Assembly (NCBI GenBank): GCA_030407315.1
Contig: JALQPE010000083.1
Location: 124,001-188,000, forward strand
Source of the DNA: Asparagopsis taxiformis
Taxonomy: Eukaryota; Rhodophyta; Florideophyceae; Bonnemaisoniales; Bonnemaisoniaceae
Length of the DNA stretch: 64,000 bases
Direction of reading: 5' to 3'
How positions within the stretch are numbered: position 1 is the first letter of the stretch; every line of letters starts with the position of its first letter. The position numbers were made by a program, and so were the translations under genes. Below are positions 21,417 through 23,046 of this stretch, in pieces. A model generated the notes under the pieces. That model searched no databases, was not told the origin of the DNA, and saw only the letters and a list, made by a program, of their open reading frames with translations.

Positions 21417-21501
21417 TGGAAGGCTGATATCATACCATTTGACTACAGGCGCGGGGAGCTGTCAAGTACGCCCGCCGGGAATCGAACCCGGAACCTCAGC
21501 T
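21417..21501 (-). tRNA. Permuted tRNA-Gly(UCC), copy 1
   Basis: On the minus strand the 3' half (bases 38-73; 21467-21501) comes first, then a 14 nt intervening sequence (21453-21466), then the 5' half (bases 1-37; 21417-21452). Rejoined at 37/38 it gives a complete 71 nt cloverleaf: acceptor GCGCCTG with CGGGCGT (G1.U72 and U6.G67 wobbles), D-stem GTCA/TGAT, anticodon stem TCAGC/GCTGA, loop CTTCCAA with anticodon UCC, 4 nt variable loop, T-stem CCGGG/CCCGG, loop TTCGATT, A73. Leader GGAAGTGG (21518-21525) pairs perfectly with trailer CCACTTCC (21401-21408). The central helix C32-C35 with leader GATG has three of four pairs. CCA is not encoded. The B box lies upstream of the A box. Confidence 0.92.
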
Positions 21502-22055: not shown

Positions 22056-22144
22056 TGGAAGGCTGATATCATACCATTTGACTACAGGCGCACCATTGCG
22101 TAGCGGATTTACACCCGCCGGGAATCGAACCCGGAACCTCAGCT
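22056..22144 (-). tRNA. Permuted tRNA-Gly(UCC), copy 2, with G3.U70
   Basis: The order on the minus strand is 3' half (22110-22144), 18 nt intervening sequence (22092-22109), 5' half (22056-22091). The 5' half is identical to copies 1 and 3; the 3' half differs by one base, C70 to T, making G3.U70. The splice region fits a canonical bulge-helix-bulge. C32-U33-U34-C35 pairs with leader GAGG (one G.U), the 3-nt bulges are C36-A37/C and U-C/A38, and the outer helix is formed by trailer GGCA with leader TGCC. The trailer CGGC is at 22052-22055 and the leader GCCG at 22150-22153. Excision would release leader and trailer and join A37 to A38. CCA is not encoded. Confidence 0.92.
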
Positions 22145-22879: not shown

Positions 22880-22889
22880 AATAAATACA
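22880..22889 (+). promoter_or_regulatory. AATAAATACA element upstream of tRNA copy 3
   Basis: The same 10-mer as upstream of copy 1, at nearly the same distance (44 nt) from the first base of the 3' half. Conservation of motif and spacing suggests a promoter role. Confidence 0.45.
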
Positions 22890-22933
22890 CAGAGAGGACT
22901 GGATTTCGTGTGAGCGGCGCAACATACGATGTC

Positions 22934-23018
22934 AGCTGAGGTTCCGGGTTCGATTCCCGGCGGGCGTAGTTGAAGAGCCAAAGCGCCTGTAGTCAAATGG
23001 TATGATATCAGCCTTCCA
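22934..23018 (+). tRNA. Permuted tRNA-Gly(UCC), copy 3
   Basis: On the plus strand: 3' half 22934-22968, 14 nt intervening sequence 22969-22982, 5' half 22983-23018. Both halves are identical to copy 1, so the rejoined cloverleaf is the same 71 nt glycine tRNA with anticodon UCC and discriminator A73. Leader GAGCGG (22912-22917) pairs with trailer CCGCTC (23027-23032). The 16 nt leader gap and 8 nt trailer gap between splice sites and helix match copy 1 exactly, although the helix sequence is different. The central helix has three of four pairs. CCA is not encoded, and no uninterrupted version of this tRNA is present in the window. Confidence 0.93.
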
Positions 23019-23041
23019 TGAAGGCTCCGCTCTCGCCCATC

Positions 23042-23046
23042 TTTTT
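23042..23046 (+). terminator. Pol III-type T5 terminator of tRNA copy 3
   Basis: Five T residues nine bases after the trailer helix of permuted copy 3. Confidence 0.7.

Follow-up and report, generated by a model that had tools for sequence, protein, structure and literature searches.

How can a functional tRNA be obtained from a gene in which the 3′ half of the molecule is written before the 5′ half? Permuted tRNA genes of this kind are on record from unicellular algae, nucleomorphs and one archaeon, mostly with small genomes. The question is raised here by a locus in a stretch of 64,000 nucleotides (hereafter the window, meaning the whole stretch of DNA analysed), where one permuted tRNA-Gly(UCC) gene had been predicted. 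If the locus is such a gene, how many copies are there, what guides their transcription and splicing, and does the nucleus depend on them?

A permuted tRNA-Gly(UCC) gene and its family

The original prediction had placed the 3′ half, the 14-nt spacer and the 5′ half of this locus, called copy 1 below, exactly to the base (Table 1). Rejoined, the halves of copy 1 make a 71-nt tRNA-Gly(UCC) with an acceptor stem running from G1:U72 to G7:C66, a D stem GTCA/TGAT, an anticodon stem TCAGC/GCTGA and a T stem CCGGG/CCCGG, in which the conserved tRNA nucleotides U8, R15:Y48, G18G19, U33, T54T55C56 and A73 can be read from the sequence. ARAGORN, given the halves rejoined at 37/38, returns tRNA-Gly(tcc) with four paired stems, in agreement with the full cloverleaf and UCC anticodon claimed before; when the 3′ half is begun one base earlier, the anticodon loop grows to 8 bases and the program cannot decide between Gly and Trp. 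Standard tRNA scans had been expected to be blind to the locus. Indeed, ARAGORN finds no tRNA there on the unaltered window and Rfam none at its gathering score, a silence that fits a permuted gene. The T5 tract announced downstream is also present.

Genome search with the copy 1 locus finds six places, namely three in the window and one each on contigs C2342, C67 and C212, in a genome of 141 Mb. The rejoined 71-nt tRNA used as a query gives 12 matches, each of them a single half and two per locus; all six loci have both halves on one strand, with the 3′ half first. Thus, the prediction of a permuted gene holds, but not that of a single gene, since it is one of a six-copy family of which two more members in the window had been overlooked. 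The spacers of the six copies are 14, 14, 18, 6, 5 and 5 nt long, and none begins with CCA, which is therefore not encoded. All six retain the Gly anticodon loop with U33, the TTC of the T-loop and A73. On viral contigs the exact 5′ half is not matched, which says little.

Copy 3 alone shows a C70 to T change, giving G3:U70 together with A73. G3:U70 is the classic alanine identity element, and from its sequence copy 3 may be decaying or liable to alanine mischarging.

Table 1. Positions in the window of the three permuted tRNA-Gly(UCC) copies and of their associated elements
Feature	Position	Strand	Remarks
Copy 1, TATA-like element AATAAATACA	22880..22889	+	54 nt upstream of the 3′ half
Copy 1, leader	22904..22933	+	-6 to -3 (22928-22931) opposite C32-C35 (23013-23016) in the canonical register, 3/4 pairs possible
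Copy 1, 3′ half (nt 38-73, with B box), 35 nt	22934..22968	+	Sequence, ARAGORN, permuted model
Copy 1, intervening sequence, 14 nt	22969..22982	+	No CCA after A73; sequence
Copy 1, 5′ half (nt 1-37, with A box and anticodon TCC), 36 nt	22983..23018	+	Sequence, ARAGORN, permuted model
Copy 1, trailer	23019..23046	+	T5 end (23042-23046), likely Pol III terminator; can pair with leader
Copy 2	21417..21501	-	3′ half 21467-21501, spacer 21453-21466 (14 nt), 5′ half 21417-21452
Copy 2, signals		-	AATAAATACA from 21556 downwards; T5 at 21400-21396
Copy 3	22056..22144	-	3′ half 22110-22144 (one change, G3:U70), spacer 22092-22109 (18 nt), 5′ half 22056-22091
Copy 3, signals		-	T5 at 22040-22036; no WWTAAAT upstream

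Could two halves stand side by side in this order merely by chance? As a non-circular test of chance, a covariance model was trained on ordinary tRNAs of the assembly that had been permuted in silico with random 12-nt spacers (19 aligned sequences, zero real permuted genes). In nine sources amounting to 83,710 bases, this model gives 50.0-54.5 bits at the six loci (E 2e-14 to 5.6e-16), with 54.5 bits (E 5.6e-16) for copy 1; its remaining matches in the window are the other two copies, at 53.2 and 50.0 bits, and one at 11.1 bits (E 0.38). Below the six loci, every match from 38.1 down to 19 bits falls on ordinary tRNA genes, with cluster neighbours scoring highest. In five additional loci, four of four matches likewise overlap such genes. 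Chance pairing of halves is ruled out by the scores of this independent model.

Conserved halves in diverged surroundings

The halves are identical at 71/71 positions in 10 of the 15 copy pairs and at 70/71 in the five pairs that include copy 3. Their surroundings are far more variable. Leaders match at 6-11 and trailers at 6-19 of 30 positions in 13 pairs, the two pairs set apart being copies 1 and 2 (leader 19/30, trailer 15/30) and the copies on C67 and C212 (leader 23/30, trailer 17/30). The latter have 3 kb in common at 95.6%, and this pair may represent two alleles or a segmental duplicate; between the other copies, once the overlap of the extracts is discounted, matches do not exceed about 120 nt. 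A dispersed repeat or SINE was rejected on the shortness of these shared stretches, C67/C212 excepted, and an assembly artefact on the differences among the flanks of the six loci. Gene conversion from copy to copy could also have helped to keep the halves alike.

The C67/C212 pair allows a closer comparison. Within 100 nt of the gene, 36 of 199 sites differ, against 55 of 2099 farther away (Fisher p 1.3e-16), on a background that is itself uneven, with 48/999 in the 1 kb upstream and 20/1000 in the 1 kb downstream, beyond leader and trailer; the two half intervals have no change at all (0/36 and 0/36). Divergence falls at a downstream T8 and about 70 nt upstream, beside a TTTAAATACA element common to both, so that a hot zone of mutation occupies approximately 1430-1635 of the two extracts (L012/L013) and ends at the T8 run. 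Raised mutation around transcribed tRNA genes was reportedly described by Thornlow in 2018 for other organisms. The pattern is what would be expected of a transcribed tRNA gene under selection and, although it comes from a single pair, it is the nearest thing to expression evidence.

Putative signals for transcription

Five of the six permuted copies have WWTAAAT between -90 and -30 (at -54, -55, -55, -83 and -83), a motif picked after inspection of the leaders. Of 24 distinct upstream regions of ordinary tRNAs, 6 contain it (-39 to -49); its background in this window is 124/18,256 windows, or 104/10,733 at a GC content of 38-50%, i.e. 0.7-1.0%. The ordinary set consists of 36 genes from 26 loci judged to be nuclear, which come down to the 24 upstream regions; excluded by judgement were loci that encode CCA, the plastid loci and L027, L030 and L038. 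The TATA-like element lies 5-44 nt farther upstream in the permuted copies than in the ordinary genes, as the longer leader would require. Downstream, a run of at least five T residues is found within 80 nt in all six copies, and no T4 interrupts the spacers or halves of any of them; ordinary tRNA genes have T4 within 40 nt downstream in 34 of 36 cases.

Folding of the precursors and the splice junction

In the canonical bulge-helix-bulge, nt 32-35 pair with leader positions -6 to -3, and cuts are made inside two 3-nt bulges. Do the six precursors keep this structure? G is found at leader positions -3 and -6 in all six copies, and the canonical offset allows 20 of 24 central-helix pairs, the best of 59 offsets. 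Counting one copy per related pair (copy 1 and that on C67), so as to have four lineages, gives 14 of 16 pairs with p 3.5e-5, with the leaders having been inspected by eye before the offset test and the offset being that of the textbook geometry. All four canonical pairs are possible in two leaders (copy 3 and C2342), and three pairs in each of the other four. When leader-trailer duplexes of each copy with its own partner were compared with exchanged ones, the own set ranked 3 among 720 at 30 nt, 6 at 25 nt and 7 at 40 nt, though the test was weak at 20 nt (62/720). Single duplexes are unremarkable, the fraction of shuffled trailers doing as well being 0.027-0.236.

Free folding gives the permuted cloverleaf with a leader-trailer helix in two of the six precursors (C67 and C212). 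In the other four, alternative folds are more stable by 2.2-5.2 kcal/mol, and in three of these four the alternative includes a hairpin between AGCCTTC in the 5′ half and GAAGGCT in the trailer. When the cloverleaf is imposed, none of the six has the canonical bulge-helix-bulge as its best fold, and the pair probabilities of that structure are at most 0.15; instead, the partner of nt 32-36 is the leader, in a shifted register, in four copies and the trailer in the other two. The best-energy fold of copy 1 pairs nt 32-35 with the trailer, not with the leader. Holding the canonical register would cost, in kcal/mol, 1.6 in copy 1, 2.4 in copy 2, 4.7 in copy 3, 3.2 on C2342, 7.0 on C67 and 5.7 on C212. 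The evidence for a bulge-helix-bulge is thus mixed: sequence conservation favours the canonical register, and the energy model does not.

The AGCCTTC/GAAGGCT hairpin, of 7 bp and at 23009-23025 in copy 1, can also form in copy 2 and in the copy on C2342, and it would compete with the anticodon stem. The leader of the C2342 copy is little shared with copies 1 and 2. The hairpin may be what remains of a former intron, or may act as a folding switch.

A proposed route to the mature tRNA

Splicing of such precursors calls for a tRNA splicing endonuclease. The PF01974 profile matches four places in the genome; compared with solved structures, a protein on C1878 resembles Sen2 (E 7.7e-13) and one on C5 resembles Sen34 (E 3.3e-18). 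The Sen34-like gene appears with identical scores at three places (C5, C1662 and C1663; L061-L063), which are either duplicates of recent origin or repeated assemblies of one gene.

Judging from sequence, the six loci are probably functional nuclear type II (37/38) permuted tRNA-Gly(UCC) genes, matured via a circular RNA. The permuted-tRNA reading of the original prediction gains support from the order of the halves, conservation confined to them, the 37/38 junction, the absence of outer remnants, the presence of Sen2 and Sen34, the TATA-like element in five of six copies and the T run in all six. We infer the steps of transcription, cutting, circle formation, ligation, end processing and use in translation as follows. 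RNA polymerase III would be guided by the TATA-like element upstream, in place of A and B boxes in the correct order, and would produce a transcript in the order leader, 3′ half, spacer, 5′ half and trailer, terminating at the T run. This precursor would fold into a cloverleaf with the spacer closing the acceptor end, and the leader, the trailer and the anticodon arm would form a bulge-helix-bulge, mostly a relaxed one. The Sen2/Sen34 splicing endonuclease would then cleave at -1/38 and 37/+1, and a presumed ligase would join nt 37 to nt 38 to give a circle, from which RNase P and tRNase Z would excise the spacer. After addition of CCA, the resulting tRNA would decode GGA.

Contiguous genes and other explanations

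Does the nucleus have any other tRNA-Gly(UCC)? GGA makes up 118 of the 379 glycine codons in ten stop-to-stop ORFs of the window, so that a tRNA reading GGA is needed there. A contiguous tRNA-Gly(UCC) gene had been named as the finding that would speak against the original prediction. None was found in the nucleus, although the tRNA census behind this result is incomplete: the RF00005 search of the genome omitted existing contiguous genes for Ala(AGC), Ala(CGC) and Gln(CTG). A contiguous copy of the exact rejoined 71-nt tRNA is absent from the genome search even at E 10, and a plant-like tRNA-Gly(UCC) query, run without a positive control, finds no contiguous nuclear copy. Contiguous Gly(TCC) genes are located on the plastid contig and on the bacterial-looking contig C1424, whose tRNAs encode CCA.

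It might be possible that the permuted loci are real and perhaps even transcribed, and that an ordinary contiguous nuclear tRNA-Gly(UCC) supplies the cell, leaving the permuted copies as dispensable extras. We consider this unlikely, yet a census that omitted two Ala genes and a Gln gene could miss a diverged contiguous Gly gene as well. Both queries, the exact one and the plant-like one with the reservation just made, argue against it, as does the fact that the contiguous genes which were found belong to a plastid contig and to a bacterial-looking one with encoded CCA; nor do six copies with nearly invariant halves look dispensable. At the opposite end, permutation might be the only nuclear form of tRNA-Gly(UCC) in this seaweed lineage, so that all GGA decoding would pass through a circle, and the permuted Gly gene might be ancestral to red algae, kept and amplified; since Cyanidioschyzon too has permuted tRNA-Gly genes with a 37/38 junction, such a gene may be ancestral and not the oddity of one extremophile. 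This stronger proposal is doubtful at present.

Two further readings deny that the loci are tRNA genes in working order. One takes them as pseudogene remnants of tandem tRNA-Gly genes that have lost their outer halves. Such a history matches one of the routes to permuted genes proposed in PMC3978253, in which a gene is duplicated in tandem and the outer segments are then lost. The acceptor-stem change in copy 3 would suit decay, and so would the failure of energy folding to favour the canonical processing structure. Remnants would hardly be expected, however, to keep nearly invariant halves amid diverged spacers and flanks or to have promoter-like and terminator-like signals in common, and traces of the outer halves are absent within 150 nt on the side tested at all six loci, where the best local scores stay in the range of shuffled sequences. 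We regard this reading as highly improbable. The other would make the loci a tRNA-like regulatory RNA with a leader-trailer stem, comparable to YrlA, instead of a tRNA precursor. YrlA is a Y RNA-like molecule of bacteria. Its family (RF02553) has, in its alignment, tRNA-like arms in permuted order within a closing stem, a layout to which the leader-trailer stem here is similar, and among six sub-threshold Rfam matches near copy 1 it is the only one that spans the whole permuted unit (23.8 bits, E 0.018). This score is nevertheless far under the gathering score of 69 bits; the genome-wide search gives four weak matches, none of them above the cut-off and none at the six loci; and YrlA is not a tRNA, while all six copies keep a complete Gly anticodon loop with U33, the TTC of the T-loop and A73. 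A regulatory RNA of this type is barely credible, and functional permuted tRNA genes are the reading followed below.

Ordinary tRNA genes of the assembly show some arrangements of their own. On C787 (L067) and C927 (L068) a search other than the RF00005 one shows contiguous genes for tRNA-Ala(AGC), Ala(CGC) and Gln(CTG); 13 nt separate the Ala(CGC) gene from the Gln(CTG) gene, and this pair may be co-transcribed.

Relation to known permuted tRNA genes

The original prediction had confined permuted tRNAs to a few algae. This is too narrow, since the 2014 review PMC3978253 counts a red alga, four green algae and a nucleomorph, six algae in all, besides one archaeon, with 34 permuted genes among them and type II as the commonest; Amorphochlora and Auxenochlorella were added as hosts later (PMC4494063, PMC12633428). 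PMC13353863 has the term a single time, within a reference. Judged by the titles listed, full-text searches, with subscription journals mostly outside their coverage, gave no report of permuted tRNA genes from a multicellular red alga.

The closest counterparts are the two permuted tRNA-Gly(CCC) genes of Cyanidioschyzon merolae with a junction at 37/38 (PMC3978253, Table 1). They and the present genes have in common a red algal host, glycine, the type II junction at 37/38, an unencoded CCA, a short spacer (7 nt there, 5-18 nt here), a TATA-like element upstream of most genes and a T run downstream. Those Gly genes, however, contain an intron at 55/56 and have the anticodon CCC, whereas the genes described here have no intron and the anticodon UCC; and C. 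merolae, a unicellular extremophile, has junctions at several positions, in contrast to six copies of one isoacceptor in an apparent florideophyte (PMC3978253). In Table 1 of PMC3978253, the permuted genes of prasinophytes and chlorarachniophyte nucleomorphs are also type II in all but one case, with spacers of 5-64 nt, but they specify Ser, Cys, Leu, iMet, Arg and Asn, with no Gly, and they belong, like those of Auxenochlorella, to the green lineage. Thermofilum pendens shares the order of 3′ half before 5′ half; unlike here, its genes are archaeal, with a junction at 59/60, encoded CCA and spacers of 7 and 1 nt.

The gene type itself is already known; its host, a florideophyte seaweed to all appearance, is unexpected. 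A six-copy family in a florideophyte-looking genome of 141 Mb indicates that a larger genome, too, can retain and multiply the permuted arrangement, and it adds a lineage for comparing permuted genes with those of C. merolae. Because standard scans miss permuted genes, tRNA annotations of seaweeds may lack isoacceptors. The copies can also be taken as a natural experiment, in which nearly invariant halves set against diverged leaders, spacers and trailers may reveal the parts that splicing and end-trimming enzymes need. How does the endonuclease recognise these precursors, if they fit the canonical bulge-helix-bulge so poorly in energy?

The host of the assembly

The photosynthetic organism of the assembly looks like a florideophyte on the evidence of its plastid rbcL sequence. 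The assembly has a single match to the RuBisCO large subunit, on contig C469, and among the 120 of 7999 matches listed for this protein, it is 96% identical to Gracilariaceae and 95% identical to Pterocladiaceae, Gelidium and Gracilaria records, the top score among these 120 belonging to a 680-aa protein. We infer that the window and the plastid contig come from one organism. A cyclophilin encoded in the window has cyanobacterial proteins, and no named alga, among its listed relatives, which fits a plastid-bearing host. For gamma-tubulin, Rhodosorus at 79% is the best named red-algal match among the 120 listed, where others reach up to 94-100%.

On C469, the 224-kb contig with rbcL, the tRNA matches are repeated at an offset of 177,170 bases; this is probably a circular plastid genome, some 177 kb long, whose assembly contains an overlap. 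Several short contigs carry CCA-encoding tRNA genes (L058 on C1424, L028 on C1328, and L037, L057, L032, L053 and L043) and are probably bacterial companions of the alga or organelle DNA. Ordinary genes for tRNA-Arg(CCT) and tRNA-Asn(GTT) form inverted pairs on several contigs (L040, L041, L060, L045 and L052), with their starts about 0.5-0.7 kb apart.
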